Position numbers and translations under genes: made by a program
Origin: a virus
Length of the DNA: 39,443 nt
Reading direction: 5' to 3' (one strand)
Virus record (IMG/VR): IMGVR_UViG_3300042564_005117
Span: 1-39,443 of that record
Notes under the pieces: generated by a model
The model's database searches: none
Told to the model about the DNA's origin: nothing
Seen by the model: the letters and a program-made list of their open reading frames with translations, nothing else
In this document: in pieces, positions 10,811 through 36,988 of the stretch
Layout of the letters: every line of letters begins with the position of its first letter
How positions within the stretch are numbered: position 1 is the stretch's first letter

Positions 10811-12088
10811 TTAAAAAGTTGTTATTTTAATTTCAAGTTGATCTGAGGATGTTACCGCGAAATTACTTGTAGCGTTAGTTGTTCCCGGACCAGTCCCACT
10901 AGTGGTATAATCCGATTGGATAATTTCATTCACATAATATTCAACTAAATAATTTTCAGTACCCGTAATTTGCATTTGTAAATTATCCCCAACCTGTATT
11001 GTTCCTAATCCTGTTACTGTACTTCCAGATGATAACGGGAATGATTCGTTAAATGTTACACCTGTTGCGGAAAAATTACCAACTATTGGACCATTAATAT
11101 TATTTACGAAAATATTAGATGTTGGTTCTGTCATTATTTTTCCCCATGTCATTCCATTATGAAAATACAAATTAGAACCTGAAACTACTATATCACCTAA
11201 TGTTGATCCTGTTGGTAACTCTGTAACCGGAGATAAAGATATTAAATTATTAATTTTAACACTACCACTGAATTCATATGTATATCCTTCAGTTACAATA
11301 TCTGTATTAAAACCAACTTTTTGATTGTTTAAAATTGATATTTGTGGATTTTGCCAACTATTTGATGTGAATAAGTGTACATGTCCGTGATTAATATCCG
11401 GAGCATCCATAGTACCGATATATAAATCCCTGCCAGCATTATAAAGATAGGCATCATTTTGGTAACCGATGGAAAACTCATTTAAAAATCCACTTGAGTT
11501 AATACCCATATTTACATAATGTATTTCTTCGGTTCCATTATCGGCAGTTGCAACGATATCAGAACTTGCACCTGCACTTGAATTAGTGTTTTGTACATTT
11601 ATTTGTGTATAGTTATCGGTATTTCCTTTTAGATATGCGATATTAAAGCTACCTGAACTATATATGTGTAGCATTTCAGGATCACCAGCAACTAATGAAC
11701 CACTACCAATAATAACCGCATTAGATATTTTAGTTGTGTCGGCAACTACTGATAATACATTTGCATTTTCACTAGCTATGTGTCCGATATATGGATGTAT
11801 ATGGTCTGTTCCATAACCAAACATTACAAACGCAGAACCAGAATCTTGGATACCATTAACAACTAATGTATTCGCTTCGCCAATATCACCTAACCACACA
11901 TTGTCACCAACTTTAAAGTTTTGCACGCTACCTGTGTCAGTAGAAATGAAATATGGTTGTATATTACTACCACTTAATAAATTACTTACAGTAATTTTCT
12001 TTGTTTCACCGCCATTAACAATCGGTAATGTGTCACCAGATAATGGTGATGTAAGTTCGTTTAATTGGGATATTTTTTGATCTGCCAT
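10811..12088 (-). CDS. Tail fibre-like protein
   Basis: The product is 425 residues. The start, MADQKISQLNELTSPLSGDT and then LPIVNGGETKKITVSNLL, is a short module that opens many environmental phage fibre proteins and probably serves to attach or trimerise the fibre. The body is a long series of short beta strands rich in N, S, G and T, for example VNNINGPIVGNFSATGVTFN, as in fibrous beta-helix shafts. Segments such as VVSGSNLYFHNGMTWGKI look like the short fibre repeat found near fibre tips. The C-terminal 60 residues (VEYYVNEIIQSDYTTSG and onwards) may form the receptor-binding tip. No chaperone or peptidase domain is visible. It begins an operon with the BppU-like gene and follows an A/T motif 17 nt upstream. 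Confidence 0.75.
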   Translation of the reverse strand: MADQKISQLNELTSPLSGDTLPIVNGGETKKITVSNLLSGSNIQPYFISTDTGSVQNFKVGDNVWLGDIGEANTLVVNGIQDSGSAFVMFGYGTDHIHPYIGHIASENANVLSVVADTTKISNAVIIGSGSLVAGDPEMLHIYSSGSFNIAYLKGNTDNYTQINVQNTNSSAGASSDIVATADNGTEEIHYVNMGINSSGFLNEFSIGYQNDAYLYNAGRDLYIGTMDAPDINHGHVHLFTSNSWQNPQISILNNQKVGFNTDIVTEGYTYEFSGSVKINNLISLSPVTELPTGSTLGDIVVSGSNLYFHNGMTWGKIMTEPTSNIFVNNINGPIVGNFSATGVTFNESFPLSSGSTVTGLGTIQVGDNLQMQITGTENYLVEYYVNEIIQSDYTTSGTGPGTTNATSNFAVTSSDQLEIKITTF

Positions 12089-12105
12089 TTTATGTTTGTT
12101 TTATT

Positions 12106-12116
12106 TTATAAATATT
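12106..12116 (-). promoter_or_regulatory. Putative late promoter motif, tail-fibre operon
   Basis: The coding strand has AATATTTATAA ending 17 nt before the ATG at 12088. It is preceded by a pure A/T stretch following the stop of the upstream gene. Confidence 0.55.
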
Positions 12117-12140
12117 AATTTATTCTTTGTTATTTTTTTA

Positions 12141-14681
12141 TTAACCAAATGTTATTGATATTGGGTCACCAAATACAAATGGTGCGGATGAATTAACAGT
12201 TTGTGTACACGCGTTAGCCGCAATCATAAAGAACGGACTACCGCCTGCGTTTGTTTCGATATTAAATGAACCCGGAGTTGTACTTGTGTATGTTGCGGTA
12301 TTTCCATTTTGTGAAATAGTAATTGTACCAGTACCGCCTGTGTATCCACTAAATTGTGATGTATAATCAGTTCCAATACTATCTCTAACATTAAAATAAA
12401 GGTAAGTTACACCACCTGATTTATTTGGATTAAATGTCTCAGTGGGACTTCCGGCGTTTATTGTAAATATCACATTACCGTTTGCAGTTGGTGGGCCTAC
12501 ATTTATGGCACCTTCATCGTCACTATAGAAATACCACTCACCTACTCCCGCTCCGCCCCCTGTTGATGTTGGGGTTGGGGTGGGACCCGGTGTTCCACTC
12601 ACCACAACACTTAACGATTTACCTGAACCCCAAGTGTAAGTGTATGTTCCTTGTGTTAAACCTAATGTTGTAAATGTTTGACCTGTGAATGTTTGAGTAC
12701 TTGTAATTTGCGATCCTGACGTATATCCTGTAGGTACAATTAATAGGTATGGTGGAGTACCATCAGTTACAATACCAAAAATATGGCCGCTTGTTGATGT
12801 TGGTGGCGCTCCGCCCCCTGTTCCAAAATTAGAAGGTGTTGTTGTAAATCCACTATACGATTTACCATAACCTCCATTAGCGCCCATTAAGAATGTTGCA
12901 CTAGTTGGACCTATTCCACCACCCATAAATGGACCCCTATTTGAATCAACGAGTGTTAAACCATCTAAATCAATTGTTCCCGATACTGACATAACAACAT
13001 CAGAACCTACTTCACTAAATGTGAGAAATCCTGTTGTTGGTTCACTTGTAGGCGTCGGTGTTGGTTCCACAGGTGTTTCGGTTGGTGTAGGGGTTGGTGT
13101 TGGAGTTGCAGTTGGTTCAGCTGTCGGCGTTGATGTTGGTGCGGACGCACCTCCTATTGTAAAGTCATAATAAACTGATTGATTATATGTGAATGCTGAC
13201 ACAGGTGAACTTTGAACTAACGAAAGCATAGTACCATCAACTTGAAAGTAATCTTCATTCATATTATCTATAAAACTAATTGTTCCTGTTATACCTGAAT
13301 ATACCGCACTATTTTCATCTTGACATACTGTCATCGTAAACGCACTACCTGTAAGATTTCCAAAATATGTTAATCTATCTATTCCATCACTATCGTATCT
13401 ACTAATAAATGTTGGTGGTGCAATTGCTAATTTATTTACTTCATTTGAATATGTTGATGAAGTGCTATTCACCCAAAGAGTATTTCCCGATGTTGGTGGT
13501 AGATATATATTACTTAAATTATATCTAATACCACTACATGAACTAGAAGTGGTTGTTGGTGTTGGTGTAGGAGGCACTTCTGTTGCCGTTGGTGATGGGG
13601 TTTCTGTGGCGGTTGGGGTAGGTGTAGGGGTTGCTGTAGGTGGTATATCAGTGGTTGTTGGTGTAGGAGGCACTTCTGTTGCCGTTGGTGAAGGAGTTGG
13701 GGTTGGTGTATTTGTATCTAATAAAATGTTACTGTTATTTTCTTGTAATAAATTGTCACCGTTTTCCAATAATAAACTATCACCAATTGATGGAACATCA
13801 GTAGGTGTTGGTGTTGGTTCCACAGGTGTTTCGGTTGGTGTAGGGGTAGGACAAATATCACAATCAGTTCTATATGTTGCTGTATTACTACCATTCAAAT
13901 TAACGGTTTTATAGAAACCATTATGAACAATAGTTCCCCAACCATTTAAACTAAATCCATCTCCACTTGTTATAAAAATATTTGATTCACAGAATGTTGG
14001 ACCATCTCCCGTTACATAAAACCTTGGACATTCTCCCACAGAACAATTACAAGTCCCCTCAACGGAGTCCTCTCCCAATATTATTTCACCATAGAATAAT
14101 GTTGATGTTGCTGTCGGTGTTGGGGTTTCTGTATTTGTTGGTACCGGAGTTGCCGTAGGTGGAACATCGGTAGGTGTAGGAGTTGGTGTCGGTTCAATCG
14201 GAGTTGCTGTTGGTGTGATATCTGTCGCAGTCGGCGTTGGTGTGTTTGTTGGTGTTGGAGTAGGTGTTACTGTTGGAAGAGGAGTACTTGTTGGTAATGG
14301 TGTTGTTTGATTTTCACCATACGATGTCCAAAATCCATTATCATTTAACCATATTCTTGCATCGTTACCATCCGTAAACGGTGATAACCCTTCAGTTATT
14401 GGTAATACGTTTACTAAATCTAAAAAAGATTGATCTGTTAATACAGATGATCTCCAAAATCCTAAATAAGCATCGACTTCAACTGGTGTTGAGTGATCTC
14501 CAGTTACAACTTCATGAGCAATAACATAACCCAATTCTTCATCGGGCCCCATCCACCATTTAACATCGCCTGGATTTTGTGAGTAATCTTGGTCAGAAAC
14601 CCCTATCGCGAGATTTCCAATTTGTGTTGTTCCGTCTATCGTGGAACCCGTATTATATGCGAAGGGTCTTGTTGTTGCCAT
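12141..14681 (-). CDS. Large modular surface protein with Pro-Thr linkers (adhesin-like)
   Basis: The product is 846 residues. Residues 1-125 form a compact opening module with KWWMGPDEELGYVIAHEV, which I associate with environmental phage tail proteins. The remainder alternates beta-rich modules with Pro-Thr linkers at about residues 126-192, 275-296, 323-378, 510-548 and 694-709, all built from TPT, EPT and ATP units. The module at about 203-282 is rich in cysteine (TCNCSVGEC, then FCES and TDCDIC). The module at about 380-510 and the C-terminal modules are Ser/Thr/Gly-rich strands, such as SFNIETNAGGSPFFMIAA. The architecture suggests a tail-bound adhesin whose binding modules are spaced by stiff, extended linkers. 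Exact enzyme or lectin families are not recognised. The gene has its own A/T motif and follows a strong terminator. Confidence 0.7.
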   Translation of the reverse strand: MATTRPFAYNTGSTIDGTTQIGNLAIGVSDQDYSQNPGDVKWWMGPDEELGYVIAHEVVTGDHSTPVEVDAYLGFWRSSVLTDQSFLDLVNVLPITEGLSPFTDGNDARIWLNDNGFWTSYGENQTTPLPTSTPLPTVTPTPTPTNTPTPTATDITPTATPIEPTPTPTPTDVPPTATPVPTNTETPTPTATSTLFYGEIILGEDSVEGTCNCSVGECPRFYVTGDGPTFCESNIFITSGDGFSLNGWGTIVHNGFYKTVNLNGSNTATYRTDCDICPTPTPTETPVEPTPTPTDVPSIGDSLLLENGDNLLQENNSNILLDTNTPTPTPSPTATEVPPTPTTTDIPPTATPTPTPTATETPSPTATEVPPTPTPTTTSSSCSGIRYNLSNIYLPPTSGNTLWVNSTSSTYSNEVNKLAIAPPTFISRYDSDGIDRLTYFGNLTGSAFTMTVCQDENSAVYSGITGTISFIDNMNEDYFQVDGTMLSLVQSSPVSAFTYNQSVYYDFTIGGASAPTSTPTAEPTATPTPTPTPTETPVEPTPTPTSEPTTGFLTFSEVGSDVVMSVSGTIDLDGLTLVDSNRGPFMGGGIGPTSATFLMGANGGYGKSYSGFTTTPSNFGTGGGAPPTSTSGHIFGIVTDGTPPYLLIVPTGYTSGSQITSTQTFTGQTFTTLGLTQGTYTYTWGSGKSLSVVVSGTPGPTPTPTSTGGGAGVGEWYFYSDDEGAINVGPPTANGNVIFTINAGSPTETFNPNKSGGVTYLYFNVRDSIGTDYTSQFSGYTGGTGTITISQNGNTATYTSTTPGSFNIETNAGGSPFFMIAANACTQTVNSSAPFVFGDPISITFG
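13057..13847 (-). repeat. 38-bp identical direct repeat in two Pro-Thr linkers
   Basis: The 38 bases at 13057-13094 recur exactly at 13810-13847. Both copies encode the same linker peptide around ETPVEPTPTPT. Exact identity at wobble positions shows a recent copy or ongoing exchange between linkers, because neighbouring TPT codons in the same tracts vary. Confidence 0.8.
13561..13691 (-). repeat. 35-bp direct repeat spaced 96 bp (32 codons) in linker 3
   Basis: The bases at 13561-13595 are repeated exactly at 13657-13691. The encoded peptide, SPTATEVPPTPT, occurs twice, 32 residues apart. This looks like an in-frame tandem duplication that lengthened the linker. Confidence 0.8.
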
Positions 14682-14685
14682 TATG

Positions 14686-14697
14686 TTATATAAATAC
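14686..14697 (-). promoter_or_regulatory. Putative late promoter motif, 846-aa adhesin gene
   Basis: The coding strand has GTATTTATATAA ending 4 nt before the ATG at 14681. The terminator for the upstream unit lies immediately before it, so this motif is well placed to start a new transcript. Confidence 0.6.
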
Positions 14698-14718
14698 TTT
14701 TATTTATCTTATTTACAC

Positions 14719-14757
14719 AAAAAAAATGTGTAATAGGTCTTTAACTATTACACATTT
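14719..14757 (-). terminator. Strong intrinsic terminator
   Basis: The arms AAATGTGTAATAG and CTATTACACATTT form a perfect 13-bp stem with an 8-nt loop, followed in the minus direction by a run of eight T. It ends the transcription unit of the 702-aa and 80-aa genes. The plus direction has no matching U run. Confidence 0.85.
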
Positions 14758-14779
14758 ATAATACACTTCGAGCGTTAAT

Positions 14780-15022
14780 TTACTTAATTGTTAAAATAAA
14801 CTCGTTACCCGATTTGAATGGTGCTGTATCTGTGTCTTTTAATTCCTTTGACATGTAGTAAAATTCTTCTTTTACCACTTCAAACGGAAATCCCAATTCA
14901 CCTTTAATCACACCTTTAATATGTTCTACTGTCATAGATTCGTCAGTTATAAAAGATTTTGAAACTCTTTTAATTTTCTGACCATCTTTTTTTACTATTG
15001 TATTTACATCTAATGTTTTCAT
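14780..15022 (-). CDS. Small hypothetical protein (80 aa)
   Basis: The product is 80 residues, opening MKTLDVNTIVKKDGQKIKRVS. It has a beta strand, a helix (MTVEHIKGVIKGELGF) and further strands, ending in NEFILTIK. No family is recognised. It is the second gene of a unit with the 702-aa protein, 28 nt downstream, and is followed directly by the strong terminator. The position suggests a small partner of the surface protein, perhaps an assembly factor, but nothing in the sequence proves it. Confidence 0.65.
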   Translation of the reverse strand: MKTLDVNTIVKKDGQKIKRVSKSFITDESMTVEHIKGVIKGELGFPFEVVKEEFYYMSKELKDTDTAPFKSGNEFILTIK

Positions 15023-15050
15023 ATTTTTTTATTCTTTTTTAGTTTTGTTA

Positions 15051-17159
15051 TTAGTCATTCCACCAAATATAATCGTTTGCATTAGTTGTCTCATCATAAG
15101 AGTCAAGCTCTACCGAGGTGATAGTATCGTCACTAACCAAATAGTATACATTAGTGTTGGTTTCACTGTTATAGAATTTTACCACAAATCTATCTTTTAC
15201 TCCCCACCAATCGTTGACTGATGTAAAAGTTGTTGACTGACTATTCAATAATGTTCCTGAAAAGTTATATAAATTAATTTTCTTATAGTTATTGTCGTTA
15301 GGGTCAGTATAAACAATCATAATTTTATCTTTACCTACTCTAACCTCGTAAGTATCCATTTCAGGAAGAGTAGTAAGTTCATTACTTATACCCGTTGAAG
15401 TTAGTATTCTACCAAATACACCTCCTTGAGCCAAAAGAAATACCACATCAGGAATTTCTTTATTTTCTGAGCCGAATGTACCAGAAGTTGTTCTGTTAGC
15501 GTAGTAATCAGTTGAGATTATTTCACTACTACCACTATACACGTAAAATGCAATATTGCCATTAGTTGATGTATTAAGTGTCATGTAAGCCACTTCACCC
15601 TCACTATCCATAGATGCGTTATATCCGCCTGTTAATGAATCGGTTACAGTATCGGTAATAACACCAACGGCATTTATGTATGTGTACCTAACATCAGAAG
15701 CGTTATTGGTGAATATCTGTACAAGTGATTTATTATTTAAATAACTGTAACTGAAACTATTAATATCTGATACATTCACACCTGTGCTTTCAATATGAGT
15801 GCTACCTGACATAATAGTTAAGAAAGATAAAAGTCCATCACCATTATCAACTGCCGTTCTAAATATGTCACTTAATTGTCCCCAAGTTGAGATATATTTT
15901 GTTTCGTCATTGGCAAATGTATATGTGCTAAAAGATGATTGATTATCAAACATATATAGAATGTCGCAATATGAAACCTGTGCACCAACGTTGTTACCAC
16001 CTAAATAATTAGAGAAAAAGATAACCACACCGCCGTCATTCTCATTATTAGTTGCTGGGTAAAAGTCAGAATCTCCATTCAAACTAAGGTTATCATATTC
16101 TACACCCTTAACGTGAGATGTTTCAATTGTTGTATCAGTATTACCGTTATAGTGTATGATTTTATAGTCAACCGCATTATCATTACCATCCCAATATACG
16201 GATGTGTATTTGTTTGTGCCGTGGAATAGTTCATCTCTATTAGTATATGTGTTACCTGTTAACGACACTGTTTCTAAAACTGTTCCAGTTAAATCACATA
16301 TTTCAATATTTGTATAAGTATAATTTGCAGCTTGATTTTGTGTTTCAACAACAATAAAGTTAGAACTTGGACTTATTTTGTGCCTAATCGCGGTACCATC
16401 TGTCCAAGTTTTGAATAATGTTGTTGTACCATCTTCTGGATTAACGATGTATGATTGACCATTACCATCATAATTCCATTGACCTCTCTCAAATTTTTTG
16501 ATAATAAATGTACCATCGGACGCCTCTTCATTCCAATCACTTTCTATATCTACGTAATGTGTTGTATCGTCCCAATTATATGTGTATACATTAGTACCGT
16601 CAGAGTATTTTAAAACACCAAGGTCAACGAATTCCGCATACGTCCATTTATTTTGAAGTATACCTCTACTAAAACTATCAGTTGTACCACTATATCTTTC
16701 AATTTCAGTATTTGTTGAATCGGTGAAAATCACTAATCTATCGTCAAGATTGTTTTCGCCTCTAAAATAGTACATAAATCCAGATTCATTTGAAAAGTTA
16801 AGGCTATTATTTTCCCAATCACTACTAAGGACACCTAAATCAATTATTTCCGCAGTAAAATCATTAAAGTTTAATGTTGCCGCACCGTAGTTACCCGATG
16901 TTGTCATTCTATCTACCGCAACGAACATTTGAACACCTTCAAAAGCCGGTTCAGGTACTGTTAATGTATATGTGTAATCATATTCGGCCAAATAAAGCGA
17001 ATAGATGCCGTACGGATGTGTGTTAATATTATTAAATGGGATTACTTTTGTCCCAAGGTTTACTGTTGTACCTGACGTTGTACCGGTATATGGTACAAAA
17101 GTTACCGTTGCGGTTTTTCCACTTAGATTAGTACTTAATATTCTTGCTCCTACTGCCAT
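15051..17159 (-). CDS. Large beta-rich surface protein (fibre or propeller-like)
   Basis: The product is 702 residues. Residues 1-65 are a fibre opening module: ARILSTNLSGKTATVTF, then an TTVNLGTKVIPF stretch, then YGIYSLYLAEYDYTYTLTVP. I recognise it as an N-terminal module common in environmental phage tail proteins. The rest is a long chain of short strands with Asp/Asn/Thr turns, where elements such as IFTDSTNTEIERYSG, VVETQNQAANYTYTNIEICD and YLNNKSLVQIFTNNASDVRY recur about every 45-60 residues. That is how beta-propeller or beta-helix proteins appear. Unlike its neighbours it has no Pro-Thr linkers. Its role in binding host surface sugars is inferred from the cassette. It has its own A/T motif and shares its transcript with the 80-aa gene. 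Confidence 0.7.
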   Translation of the reverse strand: MAVGARILSTNLSGKTATVTFVPYTGTTSGTTVNLGTKVIPFNNINTHPYGIYSLYLAEYDYTYTLTVPEPAFEGVQMFVAVDRMTTSGNYGAATLNFNDFTAEIIDLGVLSSDWENNSLNFSNESGFMYYFRGENNLDDRLVIFTDSTNTEIERYSGTTDSFSRGILQNKWTYAEFVDLGVLKYSDGTNVYTYNWDDTTHYVDIESDWNEEASDGTFIIKKFERGQWNYDGNGQSYIVNPEDGTTTLFKTWTDGTAIRHKISPSSNFIVVETQNQAANYTYTNIEICDLTGTVLETVSLTGNTYTNRDELFHGTNKYTSVYWDGNDNAVDYKIIHYNGNTDTTIETSHVKGVEYDNLSLNGDSDFYPATNNENDGGVVIFFSNYLGGNNVGAQVSYCDILYMFDNQSSFSTYTFANDETKYISTWGQLSDIFRTAVDNGDGLLSFLTIMSGSTHIESTGVNVSDINSFSYSYLNNKSLVQIFTNNASDVRYTYINAVGVITDTVTDSLTGGYNASMDSEGEVAYMTLNTSTNGNIAFYVYSGSSEIISTDYYANRTTSGTFGSENKEIPDVVFLLAQGGVFGRILTSTGISNELTTLPEMDTYEVRVGKDKIMIVYTDPNDNNYKKINLYNFSGTLLNSQSTTFTSVNDWWGVKDRFVVKFYNSETNTNVYYLVSDDTITSVELDSYDETTNANDYIWWND

Positions 17160-17180
17160 TTTGTTTATATTTTTTGTCTA

Positions 17181-17191
17181 TTATAAATACC
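17181..17191 (-). promoter_or_regulatory. Putative late promoter motif, 702-aa surface protein
   Basis: The coding strand has GGTATTTATAA ending 21 nt before the ATG at 17159, in the 64-bp gap after the preceding gene. Confidence 0.55.
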
Positions 17192-17223
17192 TTATTTTAT
17201 TTGTATCTTTTTTATTTTTTATT

Positions 17224-19272
17224 TTATATTGGTGTTGGTGTTGGTTGGTTAAGATAATTTACTTCTAATGTTGCGGTATTACCCGTCACAAATACAATTG
17301 TATTCTGTGAGTTTGCTGCCGGTAAATTAATACCTGTTCCTGACCAATACCAGAAATTACTTGTACCATCTGACGAATTAATCGTGTATTGTTGATTTTT
17401 AACTACACCAGCAGTTACGGTTGATGTATATGTATCACCATCAAAAATAATACTTGGTGTTCCTGGTGGTACTATAATAGTTAAAGTTGCCATTTCTGGT
17501 GTACTTGTTGGTGTTGGTGTTGGTATTGGTGTATCTGTCGAGGTAGGAGTTGGAGTCGGTGTGTCGAAAGTTACAATTGGTTGTGACTCACATAATACTA
17601 TGAATGTTCTTTCATCAGCAATAACAAATGATCCGTCAGCGACTAATAACCAACCATTACCATTTGGTGCTGGACCAGGTCCGTAGAACCATATATGGCC
17701 ATTTGTAAGTTGTCTAACCGTTCCCTGATCATCAACGAAATACCAACCTGGCTGCGGAGCGTTACTTGGATTTTCAAATGATTGTCCTATTGATATGTAA
17801 TTATAGTCATACCCGTTCCACGCAATTCCAGCTTGTTTATAGAAATAATGTGATGTTCCACAATTACTTACACTGAATCCATTATATACCGGTTCAGGGT
17901 ATGGTGTGGCTGTTGGTGTTACGGTAGGTGTTGGTGTTGGTGTTGAAGTTGGTGTAGGGGTTGGTGTTTCTGTAGGCGTCGGTGTTGGTTCCGGAATAGG
18001 TGTTTCTGTCGGTGTAGGTGTTGGGGTTGGTGTCGGCGAATTGCCCATTGATTCATAAATTCTTGATATGAAATTGTCAACCACGGTATTAACCTCACTA
18101 AATGTTACCTCGCCACTATTTGTTTTACTTAACGTTGTTTTAATTGCTAAAATGTTGTTTGTACCATTTCCAGATGCGTAAAGGAATGAACCACATCCTT
18201 GATTACTTGAATCACCACCATAGAAAACATTACCAAATGAAGAATTCCAATCTGGATGTCCTAATAAAATAAACACATCACAAACTGATGGATCACCAGC
18301 ATCATAAGTTTGTCTATAATATGAATGTACTGTGAACCCACTTACTGTATTTCCCGTATAAATGTTTCCTTCTACAAAAGTACCACTACCATCGGCACCA
18401 ATATTACCACCACATTGGAATCCAATAGGTTCTCCTGAGTTTGGTCTTGTTCCAATAACGGTAAGTGGTAAAAGATTTGGACTTTCATAACCCAAACTAA
18501 TATAACTAAAACTTGTATCCATTGTACCGGTAGTTCCGGTGGTTTCATAATTTATCGCATATGGATAATTTGATTCTCCAGAATTATATCCTGTATCACC
18601 TGTGTATGTTACATTTGATAATAACCAAGGGGATGTTGCATTTCCATCATCATACATGTCACTATCATTACCACCATCTGATATATAAAAACCGCTACCA
18701 TCTAATTGATATTCATAAAAATCCGGATTTTTAAAATCGGACATATAATTTCTTAGATATGATGCAATTGTTTCTAAATTTGGTGCTGAGTTTGACATTA
18801 ATACGTTATAATCTAAATCATTATTAGGTATTAAAACATATGTTCCATCGTTATTTGGTATTAATGTAAAAGCAATATCGTTTTCTGGAATAATCACATA
18901 TGAAAGATCATTATTAGGTCTTTCAGGAGATTCAATATCAGAATCAGTCAATTCTTGACCATATTCAACCACCCAAATATTTTGTTGTAAATCTGACCAA
19001 GCAAGAACTTCTTCTATTGTCGTTCCCGTAGAACCAAATGATTTTAAAAAGAAAATACATTGTTGATCGTTATGGGCTACGTGAATACTAGGACCTTGTA
19101 ATAACTTAGTCATGTATATCGTATAACCACCGACAGGTGGCTCAATACCCTTATAAAATCCTGTAATTGATGACGGACCGTAATCGTCAGAACCTTGAAC
19201 TCCAATTTTGAAGTCTTTTCTTACTGCGGCCCTAAGGTAGGTTTCACCGTATTTTAAATAATTTCTTGACAC
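17224..19272 (-). CDS. Modular surface protein with Pro-Thr linkers (682 aa), GTG start
   Basis: The start is GTG at 19272 (GTG TCA AGA AAT), overlapping an out-of-frame ATG four bases upstream; there is no better in-frame ATG nearby. Residues 1-125 are a globular N-terminus (RNYLKYGETYLRAAVRKD and onwards). Near residues 122-156 a short unit of the form Y/F-x-L/I-I-P-x-N-D occurs three times. A domain at about 160-410 contains QGCGSFLYASGNGTNNILAI. The first Pro-Thr linker is at about 411-461 and the second at about 570-590, with a W/G/P-rich module between them (GWYFVDDQGTVRQL, then GHIWFYGPGPAPNG). The last module ends NQPTPTPI, so the chain stops inside a linker-like tail. This could be a natural end or a module lost by recombination. 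A tail adhesin role is inferred from the cassette. Confidence 0.65.
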   Translation of the reverse strand: MSRNYLKYGETYLRAAVRKDFKIGVQGSDDYGPSSITGFYKGIEPPVGGYTIYMTKLLQGPSIHVAHNDQQCIFFLKSFGSTGTTIEEVLAWSDLQQNIWVVEYGQELTDSDIESPERPNNDLSYVIIPENDIAFTLIPNNDGTYVLIPNNDLDYNVLMSNSAPNLETIASYLRNYMSDFKNPDFYEYQLDGSGFYISDGGNDSDMYDDGNATSPWLLSNVTYTGDTGYNSGESNYPYAINYETTGTTGTMDTSFSYISLGYESPNLLPLTVIGTRPNSGEPIGFQCGGNIGADGSGTFVEGNIYTGNTVSGFTVHSYYRQTYDAGDPSVCDVFILLGHPDWNSSFGNVFYGGDSSNQGCGSFLYASGNGTNNILAIKTTLSKTNSGEVTFSEVNTVVDNFISRIYESMGNSPTPTPTPTPTETPIPEPTPTPTETPTPTPTSTPTPTPTVTPTATPYPEPVYNGFSVSNCGTSHYFYKQAGIAWNGYDYNYISIGQSFENPSNAPQPGWYFVDDQGTVRQLTNGHIWFYGPGPAPNGNGWLLVADGSFVIADERTFIVLCESQPIVTFDTPTPTPTSTDTPIPTPTPTSTPEMATLTIIVPPGTPSIIFDGDTYTSTVTAGVVKNQQYTINSSDGTSNFWYWSGTGINLPAANSQNTIVFVTGNTATLEVNYLNQPTPTPI

Positions 19273-19274
19273 TC

Positions 19275-19285
19275 ATATAAATATC
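19275..19285 (-). promoter_or_regulatory. Putative late promoter motif, 682-aa surface protein
   Basis: The coding strand has GATATTTATAT ending 2 nt before the GTG at 19272. This is among the closest spacings in the series. Confidence 0.55.
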
Positions 19286-19302
19286 AATTATTTATGAAAC
19301 GT

Positions 19303-21111
19303 CTATAAAAATTGCCCTTGATACGTACTTAAATTATATTGTAATGATGCTACATGTTCTTGATCCTCACAAGTTTGGGATTGTAATGAAACGTATGTAC
19401 CCAATGATTCCACACCAAATACATTAGTGTAACTAACATTTGTAAATGTATATAAATCAGGTAACGGTATTACAGTACCACCTTTATACATTGTTACTTT
19501 GATAACAACTGGTTGTGATCCTTGATCACCATACCACATTGCATTCATATCGATAGTTATTGTGTTTTCTGATGGAAATTGATTTTTAAATTCAATTAAA
19601 TTAATAAAGACTGACTCAAAACCATTTCCGGTATTATCTCCACCCCAAGTCATAATTGGTGTGAGATTATCATCAATATTTGGGTATGTTTCTAATCTAC
19701 ACCAACCTAAATAATCTGTTTGACCTACATTAGGATTACTAACTCTGGTTCTTGTGTCTAAATCGGTACCATCTGTAAACGAATATGTTACAATTATATA
19801 ATCCGCATTGAAATCAAATACTCCTCCCGTTTGATATGCCGGTGGTGTTGGTGTTATTAATGGTGTTGGGTCTGGAGTATTCGTTGGTGACGGCGTTGAA
19901 GTTGGTGTTGAAGTAGGGGTTGATGTGGGTGTACTAGTTGGTCTATTTGTTGCCGTTGGTGTCGGAGTTGCCGTTGGTGTTGGAGTTGCTGTTGGCGTTG
20001 GTGTAGGTGGTACATATTGATATACATCATCCACACAAGGATCATTACATATTTCAAAATCAAAATCATTTAATCTTGTTCTAAAGTTATGTTTAACATG
20101 AACAAAGTCTAACGGTTCTTCGTAGTATTTTATTGATTTAACAATAAATCCGGTAACCGAGTAAGTGCCGAAGAAGGAATAATCTTGACCACCGCCCCAT
20201 GACTGTACTATATTCTGTTCGTCCCTATATGATGGTATAACCTCTTCCCAATTATGTTCAACGTGAATCAAACCACCATTTAGATAAAATCTTAATTCAC
20301 CTAACCTTTTGTCTCTTTCATTTGACCATTTTTTATTTAACTCCTCAATGTATTCCGTAGTAATCGTCCCACCTGTAACCCAATCACTAATTGTATTAGT
20401 TATTGTATAACCCTCAACTATTTGAGTTGAGGTCATTGCTGTAACACCAGTTAACGGTTTTACATATTCAACAGCATGAGGTCCCTGAATTAAATCGTTA
20501 AATCCACCTTCATTTTCCAAATCACATCCGTCATATTCTTTATATCTATTAAAAACTATCGTTAAATTGAAATCTTTAGTGTCTCCCGTCACACATAATG
20601 TTGGGGTTACACCATTTGACATGTAGTGTGTACCAACATAACCCGAATCTAAATCGCAATATCCAGAATAACGATGCGCCACCCATTTAACCTTACCGTC
20701 GTTAGTAAATTGAAATGATAGGTTATTATCTAAATAATTTGACGAAATAGTATTGTCGTCAGTTCCTAAATAATAAAAAACCTTACCTTCTGACCAGTTA
20801 TTTTCGTCTCTATTAAAAACAAAATCTAATGTCCATCCCTTTTCAGTCCTTCTTCTAATCGTAAAATCACAGGTATCACCTGTATATCTCACATTAATAG
20901 GTATAACCCAAGGCTTTATATTGTTTATATTATCATTTAAACAATTTGAATCAATTATAAGTGAACTATATGTGATCGGGGTGGTTAAATCTAACACATC
21001 CGTATCATAATCAACCTCATTTGTGGTTAATTGATAGTCGTAAAGTTCTGATGAATCTAGTTTTAAATCCAATTTAGATCCATAATAGTTTAAAATATTC
21101 TGTCTATTCAT
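19303..21111 (-). CDS. Modular surface protein with Pro-Thr linker (602 aa)
   Basis: The open frame extends to 21132, but I set the start at the ATG at 21111 (MNRQNILNYYGSKLDLKL). The seven codons before it are occupied by GATATTTATA, the promoter motif used by its neighbours, and the motif then sits 5 nt from the ATG. Residues 1-360 form a large beta-rich part with features of a jelly-roll or lectin fold, for example GWTLDFVFNRDENNWS, FNLTIVFNRY and LGELRFYLNGGLIHVEHNW. These recall laminin-G/concanavalin-type sugar-binding sheets. A Pro-Thr linker of about 55 residues (about 366-421) joins this to a C-terminal module (FDFNADYIIVTYSFTDGTD and onwards). A sugar-binding role is inference from the pattern only. 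Confidence 0.65.
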   Translation of the reverse strand: MNRQNILNYYGSKLDLKLDSSELYDYQLTTNEVDYDTDVLDLTTPITYSSLIIDSNCLNDNINNIKPWVIPINVRYTGDTCDFTIRRRTEKGWTLDFVFNRDENNWSEGKVFYYLGTDDNTISSNYLDNNLSFQFTNDGKVKWVAHRYSGYCDLDSGYVGTHYMSNGVTPTLCVTGDTKDFNLTIVFNRYKEYDGCDLENEGGFNDLIQGPHAVEYVKPLTGVTAMTSTQIVEGYTITNTISDWVTGGTITTEYIEELNKKWSNERDKRLGELRFYLNGGLIHVEHNWEEVIPSYRDEQNIVQSWGGGQDYSFFGTYSVTGFIVKSIKYYEEPLDFVHVKHNFRTRLNDFDFEICNDPCVDDVYQYVPPTPTPTATPTPTATPTPTATNRPTSTPTSTPTSTPTSTPSPTNTPDPTPLITPTPPAYQTGGVFDFNADYIIVTYSFTDGTDLDTRTRVSNPNVGQTDYLGWCRLETYPNIDDNLTPIMTWGGDNTGNGFESVFINLIEFKNQFPSENTITIDMNAMWYGDQGSQPVVIKVTMYKGGTVIPLPDLYTFTNVSYTNVFGVESLGTYVSLQSQTCEDQEHVASLQYNLSTYQGQFL

Positions 21112-21116
21112 TATTC

Positions 21117-21126
21117 TATAAATATC
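21117..21126 (-). promoter_or_regulatory. Putative late promoter motif that decides the 602-aa start
   Basis: The coding strand has GATATTTATA ending 5 nt before the ATG at 21111. It would lie inside the coding sequence if the longer frame were used. Confidence 0.55.
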
Positions 21127-21139
21127 TTTCATAACATTT

Positions 21140-24496: not shown

Positions 24497-25717
24497 ATGT
24501 CGAAAATTAGAATTTTAGCAATCCCCTCGGATAAACATGGTGTAGGTAAATTTAGGATGATGGATCCATTTGTGTTCATATCAGATAAGCACTCGGATGA
24601 CGTTCACGTTGATATAACCTACAACGCGGAAGACAGAGATGATTATTTTTTAAGTTACGACATTGTTGTATTCCATACTTTTATTCATCAAACAAATCAC
24701 GAACATAACATTAAGAGAATTAATTGGTTAAAATCAAAAGGTATTATTACCGTTATGGATATCGATGACTTATGGTTTGTGGACCAAAGACATCCAATGT
24801 ATCACGCGATCAAAATGAATAAGGTCGGTGAAATGAAAATTGACATGTTAAAAACCGTCGATTACGTTTCAACAACCACAAAAATATTTGCGCAGACAAT
24901 TAAAGATAGATTAAAAATTAAAAATGTAGTCATTTTTCCAAACGCAGTAAATGAAGATGAACCACAATTTCAAAATAAACTAACTAAATCAGATAAGGTT
25001 AGATTTGGTTGGTTAGGTGGATCCTCACATCTATATGATTTAGAGTTAATGTCAAACGGTATTTCCGCAACTTACAATTCGTTTAAAGACAAAGTTCAAT
25101 TTGTTTTATGTGGATTCGATACCAGAGGTAGCGTTACGATGATTGACCAAAACGGTAAACAACAACAAAGACCAATCCAACCAACGGAAACGGTTTGGTA
25201 CAAATATGAAGGGTTTTTTACTGACGATTTTAAAGTATTAAGTCCAGAATATAAAAATTATCTAGGCGCATTTACTGAAGGTAATTATGATGATACTAAT
25301 GAACCATATAGAAGAAGATGGACTAAAGATATTAACACATATGCAACAAACTATAATACGTTTGATGTATCTCTAGCACCATTAGTTGACTCTGTTTTCA
25401 ACGCAAATAAATCACAATTGAAAGTAATTGAAGCTGGATTTTTTAAGAAAGCAATTATTGCAAGTGATGTTGATCCTTTCACTATTGATTTAATATCTGC
25501 CGTTGATGAAGGTAAATTTAATGATAAGGGAAATGCATTATTAGTAGGGTCAAAAAAGAATCATAAGGATTGGGCAAAGCATATGAAGCGTTTAGTTGAA
25601 AGTCCTAATATGATTGAGGATCTAGGCAATCGTTTATATGAAACAGTTAAAGATACATACTCATTAAAGAAAGTATGTAAAGACAGAGTAGAATTTTTTA
25701 AATCAATAATAAAATAG
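24497..25717 (+). CDS. Glycosyltransferase, GT-B fold (family 4-like)
   Basis: The product is 406 residues. It begins KIRILAIPSDKHGVGKFR, a first Rossmann strand with a glycine loop, as in GT-B enzymes. VVFHTFIHQTNHEHN and KGIITVMDIDDLWF fit the acceptor domain, and VRFGWLGGSSHLYDLEL begins the second, donor domain. The C-terminal part holds SLAPLVDSVFNANKSQLKVIE (near residue 291) with GFFKKAIIASDVDPF. That is the family 4 sugar-nucleotide site with an Asn-Lys-Ser in place of the usual E-x7-E, plus the P-E-x-like turn. It would move a sugar from a nucleotide donor to an unknown acceptor such as DNA, virion protein or host glycan. It is the first of three glycosyltransferases in this plus-strand block. 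Confidence 0.8.
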   Translation: MSKIRILAIPSDKHGVGKFRMMDPFVFISDKHSDDVHVDITYNAEDRDDYFLSYDIVVFHTFIHQTNHEHNIKRINWLKSKGIITVMDIDDLWFVDQRHPMYHAIKMNKVGEMKIDMLKTVDYVSTTTKIFAQTIKDRLKIKNVVIFPNAVNEDEPQFQNKLTKSDKVRFGWLGGSSHLYDLELMSNGISATYNSFKDKVQFVLCGFDTRGSVTMIDQNGKQQQRPIQPTETVWYKYEGFFTDDFKVLSPEYKNYLGAFTEGNYDDTNEPYRRRWTKDINTYATNYNTFDVSLAPLVDSVFNANKSQLKVIEAGFFKKAIIASDVDPFTIDLISAVDEGKFNDKGNALLVGSKKNHKDWAKHMKRLVESPNMIEDLGNRLYETVKDTYSLKKVCKDRVEFFKSIIK

Positions 25718-28329: not shown

Positions 28330-28511
28330 CTGAAGTAAACATATTCAAATACGAAGTTATAAAAATGTGTTTGGATAGAATATTAGGTGAAATAGATGAG
28401 GTGGATGAAGAGTTAGGAAAATTTGCACAAGAAGGAACGTCAGTGTCTTTCAAAATCGCATTTAACACATTAATAAAAAATCAAATTTTAATAGAAGACG
28501 AAGATGAATAA
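28227..28511 (+). CDS. Hypothetical acidic helical protein (94 aa)
   Basis: The product is 94 residues beginning MVEIFGKSYYIDLDGITEKC. Then come VNIFKYEVIKMCLDRILGEIDEVDEELGKF and VSFKIAFNTLIKNQILIEDEDE, which read as a real helical domain. It overlaps the preceding gene by 103 nt in a different frame; its 3' end overlaps the next gene by 8 nt. A shorter start (MCLDRI) would lose only the overlapping part, but YYIDLDGIT looks coding. No family is recognised. Confidence 0.6.
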   Translation: MVEIFGKSYYIDLDGITEKCRTGNNITDEDGGEVTEVNIFKYEVIKMCLDRILGEIDEVDEELGKFAQEGTSVSFKIAFNTLIKNQILIEDEDE

Positions 28512-29560: not shown

Positions 29561-30340
29561 ATGAAAAATATAACGATAATTTTACCAGTACATAGAATTG
29601 AAGATAATTACCGAGTTATGTTTGAAAACGCGGTTAAATCAGTTGAGCAGTTTCATAATGATGTTAAATTGATGATAGTTTGTCCGGCAAATGTTAAATC
29701 TGAATTTGCAAATATTTCAGACACATTAGAAGTGAATATTGTTACAAACAATACAAAAACCGATTTTTGTTCTCAAGTAAACTTGGGCATTGAAAATTGT
29801 GATACTGAGTGGTTTTCAATTTTAGAAATTGATGATGAATACAAATCAATTTGGTTAAAATCAATAAATGAATATGTAAATACCTATAGTGATATTGATG
29901 TATTTTTACCTGTGGTAAAAGACATTAATACCGAGGGTAACTTTGTAAGCTTCACCAACGAATCTACGTGGGCTTATGGGTTCACAGAGAAACAGGGCGT
30001 ATTGGATAATGAGGTCTTATTGGATTTCCAAAACTATCAAATTAGCGGCGGACTTTATAAAACACAAGTTGTAAAGGATAACGGCTCATTAAAAGAAAAT
30101 ATCAAATTGACGTTTGGTTATGAGTTTTTATTAAGATTAACACATAACAATGTTAAAATAATGACAGTTCCAAGAATCGGTTACCAACACTTAAACTTCA
30201 GAGAAGATTCTTTATTTTGGTTATATAAAAATGATGACACTAACAAGATTAGTGAAGAAGAGGCTAAGTTTTGGTTAGAGACAGCAAAGAAAGAATTTTT
30301 CTTCAAAAATAAACGAGATGTAAATTATGAAGTAGTTTAA
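29561..30340 (+). CDS. Glycosyltransferase, GT-A fold (family 2-like)
   Basis: The product is 259 residues starting MKNITIILPVHRIEDNYRVM, a typical family 2 opening. The sequence has FENAVKSVEQFHND, then DTEWFSILEIDDEYKSIWL, where IDDE stands in the place of the metal-binding DxD that coordinates the sugar-nucleotide phosphates. GGLYKTQVVKDNGSL and TFGYEFLLRLTHNNVKI follow in place of the acceptor region. AAGGAG lies 9 nt before the ATG, so this gene is likely translated strongly. Its stop shares a base with the sigma gene start. Acceptor is unknown. Confidence 0.78.
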   Translation: MKNITIILPVHRIEDNYRVMFENAVKSVEQFHNDVKLMIVCPANVKSEFANISDTLEVNIVTNNTKTDFCSQVNLGIENCDTEWFSILEIDDEYKSIWLKSINEYVNTYSDIDVFLPVVKDINTEGNFVSFTNESTWAYGFTEKQGVLDNEVLLDFQNYQISGGLYKTQVVKDNGSLKENIKLTFGYEFLLRLTHNNVKIMTVPRIGYQHLNFREDSLFWLYKNDDTNKISEEEAKFWLETAKKEFFFKNKRDVNYEVV

Positions 30341-31041
30341 TGCCAAGACCAAGAACCCAGAAAATATATTTTGGAGAGGATCAAGAGAAGGCGGTAGTCA
30401 ATTATCTAGAAAGTACTGACGAGGCGGAAAAAAATAAGATATTCAACGAATATTTACGTGAACCCCTAATTATAATGGTCGAATCAATTATTCGACGTTA
30501 TAAACTTTACAGAAAAGACATGGAGTTTGAAGAAATTCATACCGATACTATGTCTTTTCTTATTACCAAGATCAATAAGTTTGACCACACAAAAAATACT
30601 AAAGCTTATTCGTACTTTGGTACCATCTGTAAAAATTACCTAATGGGTGCCATACAGAAAGATACTAAAGAACAAAATAGACAAGTTTCATATGATGACA
30701 TATCTTCCGATTTTGAAGATAGTAAAGACTTGTCATATGTGATTGATGAGTTTGTTATTGACTATAGTTCGGTTATCACAAAACTTACGATTGATTTAGA
30801 AAATTTTATAGAAAAAGAAAAAAACATAACCGATAACGAAAGAAAATTAGGTTATGCGTTACTTGAGATATTCAGCAATTTTGATAAGATATTTCAAGTA
30901 GGTGACGGTAACAAGTTCAATAAGAACCTTATTTTACTCTCATTACGTGAAATGACCTCTTTATCAACAAAAGAGATTAGAGTCTCCCTAAAACGTTATA
31001 AAAAACTATATGACGGTATTTTGGGTGGGTTTTTAGAATAA
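30340..31041 (+). CDS. 55: Late transcription sigma factor (gp55-like)
   Basis: The product is 233 residues; T4 gp55 is 185. Residues about 75-110 read FDHTKNTKAYSYFGTICKNYL, the sigma region 2.2-2.4 type segment in which an aromatic-rich helix contacts the -10 element. The order AYSYFG then KNYL is characteristic of gp55-like factors of T4-like phages. FEEIHTDTMSFLITKINKF, just before it, corresponds to the core-binding helix. A second helical region at 180-225 (LGYALLEIFSNF, then KEIRVSLKRYKK) may contact DNA or the sliding clamp. There is no -35 reading domain visible. It would direct host RNA polymerase to late promoters, which here would be the TATTTATA series. It sits just upstream of the baseplate genes. 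Confidence 0.8.
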   Translation: MPRPRTQKIYFGEDQEKAVVNYLESTDEAEKNKIFNEYLREPLIIMVESIIRRYKLYRKDMEFEEIHTDTMSFLITKINKFDHTKNTKAYSYFGTICKNYLMGAIQKDTKEQNRQVSYDDISSDFEDSKDLSYVIDEFVIDYSSVITKLTIDLENFIEKEKNITDNERKLGYALLEIFSNFDKIFQVGDGNKFNKNLILLSLREMTSLSTKEIRVSLKRYKKLYDGILGGFLE

Positions 31042-31055: not shown

Positions 31056-31433
31056 ATGAGAACACAAAGAAACAATATTACATTAGATGTTGATTCGGCG
31101 TTAGCCTTAATGCAGGAGATCTACAACGATGTCGTTGAGAATAGAAACACTGCGTCTACCATTTTGAGAAAAATGATGAGTTTTATGAAGGACGCCGAAG
31201 ACATGAGTACAATTGGACCTGTTATTAAAGAACAACAGAAGATCCTTAACGATTGTACCGAGAAGAAGATTTCATTAGTTAAATTACAAAGTGTTTTACT
31301 TAAACAAACCACGGGCGGATCTGGTGGTGGAGGCTCTATGGGTAAATTGACATTATCTGACGAAGATCGCGAGATTTTAGATAGATTAGTTAATGACGGA
31401 AATGACAATAAATCAACTAACTATTCATTATAA
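31056..31433 (+). CDS. Small helical virion-operon protein (125 aa)
   Basis: The product is 125 residues. Residues 1-90 are helical (DVDSALALMQEIYNDVVENR, then MMSFMKDAEDMSTIGPVIKE), followed by a Gly/Ser-rich hinge (TTGGSGGGGSMGK) and a short C-terminal helix. The hinge is like the flexible linkers used in engineered proteins, but here it is natural. The length and the helical pattern would fit a small terminase subunit or a baseplate helper. I cannot choose between them. Its stop shares a base with the next start. Confidence 0.6.
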   Translation: MRTQRNNITLDVDSALALMQEIYNDVVENRNTASTILRKMMSFMKDAEDMSTIGPVIKEQQKILNDCTEKKISLVKLQSVLLKQTTGGSGGGGSMGKLTLSDEDREILDRLVNDGNDNKSTNYSL

Positions 31434-33409
31434 TGGCGTTTGAGAAATTAAAAACACAGATTGACATTATTCAAAAAACCTTAGATCAGGAAAGGCACGC
31501 AAAACTTGAAATAAGTCCAGAAGATGCGTTAAAGAAATTTCAACCCAATTTACCAAACCTCAATACCAAATTAGAACAATTAAAATCTAAGTTAGCAAAA
31601 AAAGAGGCCAAATTAAATAAGCAACAAAACAAAAAAAACATATTTGACGAGGTTTTAAGTGTTGTTAATAAGTTTTTAGAAGCTGGTAGACCTGTTAACG
31701 ATCCAGATAGATTTCAATCCACACAAAGACTTAGACAACATGTTTTAGATTCGATTGATATAACTAAAAATTCGGCAAGACAAATATTGATGGATTGTGT
31801 TAAAAATGCATTTTTTGCTAATGATGGAATTTGTGGTGCAGATCAATTCATGACAGGAGAACAAATGAATAGTGTTTTTGTCTACCCAAAAGAGATTGAT
31901 TTTTTAAATATGTTTAAAGTATCACCAGATAGTGATTACGGTAAGATAATGTATGAAAATCCAAAAAGAACATACGGAAATAAAGTTCAAATTAATTATA
32001 GTTTATATAATACATTTATTGGGTCGGGTAATACAACCCCAATCGGAACACAATTTCAATATGACACACCAGGTAATAAAACTTTATTTATATCCGATTG
32101 GGACGTTTCAAATCAAAGATTCAATATTACAGATTTAACTCAACCAATAAAAATTGGGGGAGTTGTTACATCATATGGAAAAGTAAATGTTGGTGATTTT
32201 TTTAATGATTATTATTCAAATATGGAAATGCCGGATTTGAATGAGATTGTTAAAAAAGCAATGTTAATGACATTAAAGGCGTGCAGCGCTTCCGTTGATA
32301 AAACAGGAGTTAATATTGGAGGTTCATTTACTGGAATGGAAAATTCGTTAGATTTTGCACCTTCATTAGATGAAGCGATTAACAATTTAGAAAGAATGTT
32401 AAATAAACTATTCGCTTTCTGTAATAATGGTCCTATAACAGGTATAACCCCAACAAATTTGTTTCATGATCAAGAAGAAGACGAAGAATTTTATTTTGAT
32501 TTTGATGATGTTGAAGGTATAGATCTTGATGATGAGGACGCAAGAAGAAGAAAAGTTTTAAAATTTAAAGATTGTAGTAATTATGAAGTTCCATATAATA
32601 CAGTACACATGGAAGATTTTGTGTATTTGGAGGGAAAAGTAGATAGAAGATCGTGGATTGACGGCGCATTAAATAAGGCAGCATCCGATGCATATGAACA
32701 ATCTAATTTCGCTATTGATTTACCAAGCTTTCAAATATCACTCAATTTATCATTTATCCTAAACATACCAAAGGCGATGATAATGAGTGTTATTTCACCA
32801 AAAATGTTTTTACCACTTGTCATAATTTACAAACAATTTGTGGCATTAGCAAAAAATGCAATTATAGATGTAAAGGAATTAATGAAAAAAATTAAGAAAA
32901 TTTTTATTTGTCTTATAAAAGAATTATTTTGGAAATTTATAAGAGAATTTTGGAAAAGAGTTAAAGCAGACTTAAAAAATTTCTTAAAAAGAATTATAAG
33001 AAAAATAATAAGAGATAAATTAAAAAGATATCAATTGGTTATTGGTGCTTTAATTGGTTTACTAATACAAATATTAGAAACTGGATTAGATAGTTGTGAG
33101 GCATTAATTGCGGCAATTGGTGCGGCAATTAATGGTGCGCTTGATGCTGGAGGTTTAAATATTCCAAACCCTTTATTGGCGTTAGCTGGTAGATTACCTG
33201 GATTTAGTGCAGTTAAAACAACCATGGATATAACTGAAAAAATGCAAAATATGGGAATCCCGACGGGAGATGTAAACGGAGAACCAAATTACCACGTTCT
33301 TTCAGCATCAGCGCAAGTACAAGGATTTGCAGATAATTTAGCAACAACTCCATTTATGTCAATACAAGGACCACCGGGTTCCGTTGGAGGGGCATTAATG
33401 AAAACATAA
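31433..33409 (+). CDS. Virion protein with membrane-active central region (658 aa)
   Basis: The product is 658 residues. Residues 1-75 are a coiled coil (LEQLKSKLAKKEAKLNKQQN). Residues 85-340 form a globular part with QRLRQHVLDSIDITKNSA and RTYGNKVQINYSLYN. A very acidic stretch lies at about 345-365 (DQEEDEEFYFDFDDVEGI). Residues about 437-575 are striking: hydrophobic helices (LSFILNIPKAMIMSVISP, MFLPLVIIYKQFVAL) come first, then a lysine- and arginine-rich amphipathic part (KKIFICLIKELFWKFIREFW and KNFLKRIIRKIIRDKLKRY), then LVIGALIGLLIQIL and an Ala/Gly-rich helix. Such a part could insert into the host membrane on DNA entry. It opens the baseplate operon; hub, tape-measure-like or baseplate-plate roles are all possible. 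Confidence 0.65.
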   Translation: MAFEKLKTQIDIIQKTLDQERHAKLEISPEDALKKFQPNLPNLNTKLEQLKSKLAKKEAKLNKQQNKKNIFDEVLSVVNKFLEAGRPVNDPDRFQSTQRLRQHVLDSIDITKNSARQILMDCVKNAFFANDGICGADQFMTGEQMNSVFVYPKEIDFLNMFKVSPDSDYGKIMYENPKRTYGNKVQINYSLYNTFIGSGNTTPIGTQFQYDTPGNKTLFISDWDVSNQRFNITDLTQPIKIGGVVTSYGKVNVGDFFNDYYSNMEMPDLNEIVKKAMLMTLKACSASVDKTGVNIGGSFTGMENSLDFAPSLDEAINNLERMLNKLFAFCNNGPITGITPTNLFHDQEEDEEFYFDFDDVEGIDLDDEDARRRKVLKFKDCSNYEVPYNTVHMEDFVYLEGKVDRRSWIDGALNKAASDAYEQSNFAIDLPSFQISLNLSFILNIPKAMIMSVISPKMFLPLVIIYKQFVALAKNAIIDVKELMKKIKKIFICLIKELFWKFIREFWKRVKADLKNFLKRIIRKIIRDKLKRYQLVIGALIGLLIQILETGLDSCEALIAAIGAAINGALDAGGLNIPNPLLALAGRLPGFSAVKTTMDITEKMQNMGIPTGDVNGEPNYHVLSASAQVQGFADNLATTPFMSIQGPPGSVGGALMKT

Positions 33410-33413
33410 TAAT

Positions 33414-33617
33414 ATGGAAAGTCAAAAATTAATTGAAATAGCGAACGATGTACAAAATAAATCTAATAAAGATTTACTCATTGTTGCAGATGAATTGAAT
33501 GAAGAGTTTGAAAAAACAAAAGAATTGATCATTGATTTAACGCGTCATTTAGATGGTGTTGAAAGTTTATATAATAAGGTTAATAAGGAATTAGAAAAAA
33601 GATATACTGGTAAATGA
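33414..33617 (+). CDS. Small coiled-coil protein (67 aa)
   Basis: The product is 67 residues, fully helical, with a heptad pattern: LIEIANDVQNKSNKDLLIV and LNEEFEKTKELIIDL. The start is 4 nt after the previous stop and its stop overlaps the next ATG (ATGA). Position between two virion genes suggests a structural or assembly partner of the hub protein. No family is recognised. Confidence 0.65.
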   Translation: MESQKLIEIANDVQNKSNKDLLIVADELNEEFEKTKELIIDLTRHLDGVESLYNKVNKELEKRYTGK

Positions 33618-36559: not shown

Positions 36560-36988
36560 ATGAAAGTTATTAAATTAAAAGAATCCGATCTTAAAAAATA
36601 TATCTCCAAATTATTAAAGGAGAATGAAATGTCAGAAAACTATATGTTTTTTAGTAACCTTAAGCAAATTCATAGACAATGTGAAATGTTATTGAAAATG
36701 GACCCTAAAGAATTAGATAACATTATAAAGAATGGTCACGATTGGGCTGATGATCATGTTTCTGAAGCAAAAAATAATATGGACCAAGTATTTGATTTCT
36801 TTATGAACGAAACTAAAGGAAATAAACAAAGTCCAGTTTCTGCCGATGTTGATCAGTTTAGTTTAAATGAAGATGGTAAAATGGAAAGTGGTGAAAAAGA
36901 TCCTTGTTGGAAAGGTTACGAGATGGTCGGTAAGAAAAAGAAAAACGGTAAAGAAGTACCTAATTGCGTTCCAAAAAAGAAAAAATAA
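36560..36988 (+). CDS. Small protein with candidate head-targeting N-terminus (142 aa)
   Basis: The product is 142 residues. Residues 1-23 (MKVIKLKESDLKKYISKLLK followed by ENE) form an amphipathic helix ending in acidic residues. Many environmental phage proteins open this way, and it recalls the capsid targeting sequences of T4 internal proteins that are cut by the head protease. The end (DPCWKGYEMVGKKKKNGKEV, then PNCVPKKKK) is a short Cys-x-Cys unit with many lysines and is also seen in other phages. The middle is helical. A packaged head protein is a reasonable guess. Its stop overlaps the next start by one base. Confidence 0.65.
   Translation: MKVIKLKESDLKKYISKLLKENEMSENYMFFSNLKQIHRQCEMLLKMDPKELDNIIKNGHDWADDHVSEAKNNMDQVFDFFMNETKGNKQSPVSADVDQFSLNEDGKMESGEKDPCWKGYEMVGKKKKNGKEVPNCVPKKKK

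Follow-up and report, generated by a model that had tools for sequence, protein, structure and literature searches.

A conserved four-cysteine protein encoded beside a gp5-like spike gene is a candidate tail-hub component in an uncultured clade of T4-superfamily phages

We analysed a stretch of viral DNA of 39,443 bases (virus record IMGVR_UViG_3300042564_005117, here called the window), the source of which is, judged by its gene content, a T4-superfamily myovirus. The major capsid protein was recognised via its similarity to T4-like phages, and inspection of the translations by eye identified a sheath, neck-like proteins, a DNA polymerase, PhoH and dUTPase. The gene under study encodes a protein of 658 aa, and its ATG shares one base with the TAA of the preceding gene, which encodes a 125-aa protein (Table 1). 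That the reading frame is a genuine gene, as assumed in the original prediction, was confirmed.

Table 1. Genes and protein features at the locus, with positions in the window.
Feature	Position	Strand	Basis or conservation
gp55-like late sigma factor	30340..31041	+	phrog_234, E 3.9e-4
125-aa neighbour, adjoins late sigma gene	31056..31433	+	upstream in 140/140 testable loci
Studied protein, 658 aa	31433..33409	+	single ATG ORF, intact
Invariant Cys134 codon	31832..31834	+	145/145
Invariant Cys330 codon	32420..32422	+	145/145
Acidic stretch, residues 341-372	32453..32548	+	net -15 to -2 in 145 members, median -7
Invariant Cys381 codon	32573..32575	+	145/145
Hydrophobic helices, residues about 441-469, with invariant Lys457	32753..32839	+	KD19 >=1.6 in 92/145 (region 432-472); pLDDT 91-94 (441-470)
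Cationic amphipathic helix, residues 481-533	32873..33031	+	charge, model, family alignment
Second hydrophobic stretch, residues 534-552	33032..33088	+	KD19 >=1.6 in 75/145 (region 526-560); pLDDT 42-55 (531-560)
Invariant Cys555 codon	33095..33097	+	145/145
Gly/Ala-rich helix, residues 555-575	33095..33157	+	sequence; pLDDT 51-55 (551-570), 37 (571-580)
67-aa protein, between 658-aa gene and spike gene	33414..33617	+	homologue in 25/25 loci examined
gp5-like spike / hub protein, 507 aa	33614..35137	+	weak gene 5 matches; downstream in 141/141 testable loci
Probable wedge-associated protein, 460 aa	35162..36544	+	profile matches immuto gene; 137/137 testable loci

Gene order around the 658-aa gene was constant wherever a locus was long enough, for the 125-aa, gp5-like and wedge-associated neighbours alike. 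These counts were made over 144 distinct full-length proteins with the window left out, using neighbour profiles of 24 or 25 rows, which with one exception came from the counted loci themselves. The 507-aa protein resembles a gp5-type spike on scores that are weak yet mutually consistent. Its profile, searched at E up to 1, gave one short match in T4 and one in S-MbCM100, both inside gene 5 (E 0.0046 and 0.003, respectively), while 4 of the 25 members of its family matched the gp5 PHROG 430 (best E 0.0069) and one of the 25 matched the Pfam injector OB domain (E 0.02). The same genome search returned zero matches in immuto, Microcystis phage Mel-JY01 and LR756508.1, and a search of the PDB with the 507-aa protein was without match. 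The profile of the 460-aa protein matched the next gene after gp6 in immuto (E 2.5e-4); the immuto phages are distant relatives of the clade and infect Flavobacterium. The constant gene order makes a tail-hub role for the 658-aa protein likely. Not all neighbours of the 658-aa gene are structural, since the same operon also holds genes for sigma, PhoH, dUTPase and glycosyltransferase-like proteins; the original label of a virion operon is supported by the synteny with the gp5-like gene.

Relatives of the 658-aa protein, with identities to it from 80% down to about 20%, were taken from IMG/VR. Once identical proteins, fragments below 600 aa and the window's own copy had been removed, and with the window itself counted, the family comprised at least 145 distinct members (down to 17% identity with the window, effective number approximately 80), with full-length members of 627-716 aa. 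An earlier set of 91 rows, in which the window is counted twice, split into two main subfamilies, of 48 and 42 rows, plus a single outlier; a further group of 690-716 aa joined the family later. Among the matches listed, one of the four closest relatives sits in a 335-kb contig (G001). The family is that of an uncultured clade of T4-superfamily phages. A tblastn search of INPHARED (50,697 phage records) with the window protein, part of the relative L004 and two distant members gave zero relatives, as did two scans of GTDB via short peptide patterns, which distant relatives could escape. The family profile had no match in the genomes of Mel-JY01, immuto, T4 (searched whole) and S-MbCM100, and a match in LR756508.1 that covers part of the profile (positions 17-125, E 0.014) was set aside as similarity of the N-terminal coil. 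When the family was compared by hhalign with 285 ORFs of at least 120 aa, drawn from stretches of five phage records, probabilities did not exceed 2.0%. Pfam searches with 62 members produced DUF6594 in five (best E 7.8e-4), one portal match (E 0.0077) and other scattered matches.

The four cysteines listed in Table 1 are spaced by 196, 51 and 174 residues, and 76 of the 145 members contain exactly four. D156, E175, K457 and G608 were also found in all 145 members. Lys457 sits at the centre of the first hydrophobic stretch, and Pro456 beside it is kept in 128 members; K511 is kept in 136 and position 513 is acidic in 133 (Asp in 113, Glu in 20). A cysteine site has a precedent in the lambda tail-tip protein gpL, which is reported to have four conserved cysteines and a [4Fe-4S] site (PMC10721106). 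The gpL cysteines lie within 40 residues, in contrast to a span of 421 in the 658-aa protein, and metal binding by the latter would be a guess from conservation.

Between subfamilies, identity was 18-22% for the 658-aa protein, 21-24% for the spike and 46-53% for the 125-aa protein, the most conserved of the three neighbours that were aligned (the other two gave 37-41% and 21-24%). The 125-aa protein shared 46-100% identity with the window copy among 24 aligned relatives, and its position beside gp55 suggests what we take to be a late-transcription partner such as gp33. The operon that carries PhoH, dUTPase and the late sigma factor includes three glycosyltransferase-like genes between 24497 and 30340 (that at 24497 strong, those at 28504 and 29561 weak by profile), and the two nearest the sigma gene were retained in all 22 loci shown. 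On the minus strand, positions 10811-21132 hold a cluster of large proteins, probably fibre or adhesin genes, three of which (12141, 17224 and 19303) bear long Thr-Pro repeat linkers between domains; linkers of the same type were seen in G001 near 240 kb. The protein at 36560-36988 has a C-terminal motif, CWKGYEMVGKKKKNGKEVPNC, within a part with matches to six PHROGs that differ in length (best E 1.7e-8). This part may be a mobile module; the CWKGYEMVGKKKKNGKEVPNC-type pattern occurs once in the window and once in G001. By eye, the otherwise unrelated ORFs at 36560 and 36964 and several in G001 have similar short leaders of the form MK-hydrophobic-TEEQL-II-E, and a narrow pattern for this leader picked out 4 of 424 ORFs, some of them doubtful. 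We presume that these leaders may be capsid-targeting, like those of T4 internal proteins.

Hydrophobicity was assessed with Kyte-Doolittle windows of 19 residues (KD19), and a value of 1.6 was used as the threshold for a segment. The window protein reached 1.81 at both 448-466 and 534-552, while the Gly/Ala-rich stretch at 557-575 was weaker, with a peak of 1.52. Residues 437-575 contain 18 K, 6 R, 5 D, 5 E, 2 W and 8 F. Net charge was +15 in the 50-residue window starting at 483, a value reached by 0.04% of 5000 residue shuffles (p=0.0004), and among 320 G001 ORFs of at least 100 aa just two had a 50-aa window of +14 or above, one of them the orthologue of the 658-aa gene. The composition originally proposed for residues 437-575 was therefore found in its two hydrophobic stretches and its charge, and less so in its Gly/Ala helix. 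Amphipathicity, which had also been pointed out, was ordinary: the sequence includes an amphipathic 36-mer (492-527), but 31 of the 320 G001 ORFs had a helical hydrophobic moment within 0.02 of that of the 658-aa protein or above it.

These properties were not equally shared across the family. At least one segment was present in 123 of the 145 members and 22 had none; the Gly/Ala region (552-592) passed the threshold in just nine. The charge of residues 481-533 ranged from 0 to +15, with a median of +6, and was +10 or more in 28 members. In the 91-row set this region averaged +10.6 with 1-3 Trp in subfamily A (48 rows, the window counted twice) and +5.4 with zero Trp in the 43 rows outside it. 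From these counts, the cysteines are a core trait of the family and the hydrophobic helices a common one, whereas a strong positive charge is not typical of the family. We also considered a charge pairing of the acidic stretch (341-372) with the cationic helix (481-533). The two charges were correlated over the 91 rows (Spearman -0.73), but the correlation disappeared inside each group (-0.06 and -0.04) and so reflects only the subfamily split.

AlphaFold2 was run on 62 sequences, an earlier run with 12 having given a poor model (pLDDT 47.6). The mean pLDDT was 71.5 and the pTM 0.70. Residues 401-520 had pLDDT values of 78-94 in blocks of ten, so that confident folding is predicted for the first hydrophobic region and for most of the cationic helix. 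Values fell to 37-57 for residues 521-590, where both the second hydrophobic stretch and the Gly/Ala-rich helix lie. For residues 401-520 the prediction comes near to the soluble fold that had been named as evidence against a membrane-active peptide; for 521-590 it is of low confidence. Covariation paired residues 476-530 most often with 577-640 (11 of the top 150 pairs), which we take as weak support for contacts because the signal is weak at an effective number of about 80 and blends contacts with ancestry. Foldseek against BFVD found two similar fold models, both of uncharacterised proteins: A0A6J5L7A7 from an uncultured Caudovirales phage (E 2.5e-17, TM-score 0.61 by query length, 695 columns, 16% identity) and A0A8S5L9E5 from Myoviridae sp. 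ctPuP5 (E 1.8e-8, TM-score 0.48 by query length, 544 columns, 14% identity). In the PDB there was no match by sequence profile (best E 0.5) or by fold (Foldseek best E 3.3; VIA-align best Z 3.9, helical arrangements), though a known fold is still possible. The hub assignment thus has no confirmation from a known hub protein.

The tape measure of the clade was identified in G001, where the tail module reads sheath, tube, hub gene, 623-aa protein, 1578-aa protein, LysM-like protein and 1947-aa protein, with hub and wedge PHROG matches. The slot of the tape measure, after the tube and hub genes, is filled by the 623-aa protein, and homologues of 614-665 aa (some near-identical) were present in all 13 family genomes searched. 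It is homologous to the tape measure of Mel-JY01 (hhalign 95.3%, genome search E 5.9e-7). The immuto tape measure ranked second of 135 ORFs in hhalign at just 15.7%, and a search of the immuto genome with the 623-aa profile found no match at E up to 1. T4 gp29 scored 0.1% against this profile; a short match in T4 with an internal stop codon (E 0.0028) was taken as chance. The tape measures of all 13 family genomes (L263-L275) had zero KD19 segments at 1.6 or above (highest value 1.23), versus six in the Mel-JY01 tape measure, ten in the immuto protein in the same slot and one in T4 gp29, a comparison of one clade with three phages. Within the listed subset of G001 tail proteins that was compared, the 658-aa protein had two such segments, and otherwise a single protein, of 1130 aa, had one.

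We asked whether the 658-aa protein could itself be a tape measure, as the tape-measure PHROGs 4200 (best E 7.2e-6) and 167 (best E 1.8e-5) drew matches from as many as 8 of 62 members. Like the tape measures of Mel-JY01, immuto, T4 (gp29) and TP901-1, it has helical parts and hydrophobic stretches. However, a separate tape-measure gene is present in 13/13 family genomes, and the profile comparison showed no relation of the family to the tape measures of Mel-JY01, immuto and T4, the first two being absent from the 15 best of the 285 ORFs. At an E limit of 10, phrog_4200 matched the 658-aa protein in two of nine family genomes and gave matches in 6 of 14 control genomes; it matched the genuine Mel-JY01 tape measure (3.6e-9), but also another ORF of the family genome G006 (2.0e-11) and, by position, gp5 of S-MbCM100 (2.2e-8). 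Because of these matches at unrelated places and in controls we discounted the PHROG matches and rejected a tape-measure identity, which is a judgement, the control comparison having covered phrog_4200 of the two profiles.

We consider that the 658-aa protein is best explained as a folded component of the tail hub beside the gp5-like spike, with a site built from its cysteines, and give this an even chance of being right. It would be produced together with the spike and most likely assembled adjoining it in the virion. Its N-terminal part would be Lys-rich and helical, its middle a mixed alpha/beta domain and its C-terminal part a helical domain, and the cationic helix would pack against the remainder of the protein. 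From their conservation, the four cysteines probably link domains through a metal or an iron-sulphur cluster. The T4 hub proteins gp26, gp27, gp28, gp29, gp48 and gp54 would likely occupy the same neighbourhood of the particle, but have no profile similarity to the family. The constant position two genes ahead of the spike gene would also suit a chaperone or hub-assembly factor that helps to build the spike or hub without being part of the virion, and the T4 protein gp51 carries the annotation of baseplate hub assembly chaperone. We regard such a role as unlikely: the protein is large and diverges at about the rate of the spike, while the small 125-aa neighbour diverges far more slowly, though divergence alone is not decisive. 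A free cationic pore-forming or fusion peptide, as first proposed, has in its favour the exceptional charge and the amphipathic 36-mer. The charge, however, belongs mostly to one subfamily, Trp is missing from residues 481-533 outside subfamily A, an acidic residue is mostly kept at 513 within the helix, comparable moments recur in other G001 proteins and the confident fold of residues 401-520 speaks against a free membrane-lytic peptide. This reading is very improbable.

The main alternative, doubtful but possible, is that the protein is ejected. Folded in the virion, it would refold once the spike pierces the envelope, and its helices would enter the inner membrane and guide the DNA. The inserting helices would then, with similar doubt, be 441-469, 481-533 and 534-552, taking on a task that in other phages has been ascribed to hydrophobic tape-measure segments. 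The contrast between the tape measures of the clade, which lack hydrophobic segments, and the stretches of the 658-aa protein is the main pointer to a membrane role; it may be a single event, seen in one clade against three phages, with homology to the immuto protein weak. A soluble fold is compatible with later insertion, since the putative membrane regions of the T7 ejection protein gp16 are described as folded in the virion before ejection (PMC8954989). That protein differs in being a head-internal protein of a podovirus, and its likeness to the 658-aa protein is by description. Against ejection, the cationic charge and Trp vary across the family, an invariant Lys457, mostly preceded by Pro456, lies within the first hydrophobic stretch, some members have no hydrophobic segment and the tape measures of Mel-JY01 and immuto are not among the best matches of the family. 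In TP901-1, moreover, the hydrophobic regions of the tape measure may instead serve chaperone binding (PMC5099701).

Taken further, the clade may have moved the membrane-crossing task of the tape measure to a separate four-cysteine hub protein, leaving the tape measure as a ruler only, with the helices delivered as the spike is shed; we consider this speculative and unlikely to be correct. To our knowledge, how phages with a contractile tail get their DNA across the inner membrane is poorly understood. Should the membrane idea prove wrong, the 658-aa gene is still a conserved member of the spike module that encodes four invariant cysteines and for which we found no relative of known function. 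If the idea is true, the clade would allow the ruler and membrane functions to be tested apart.
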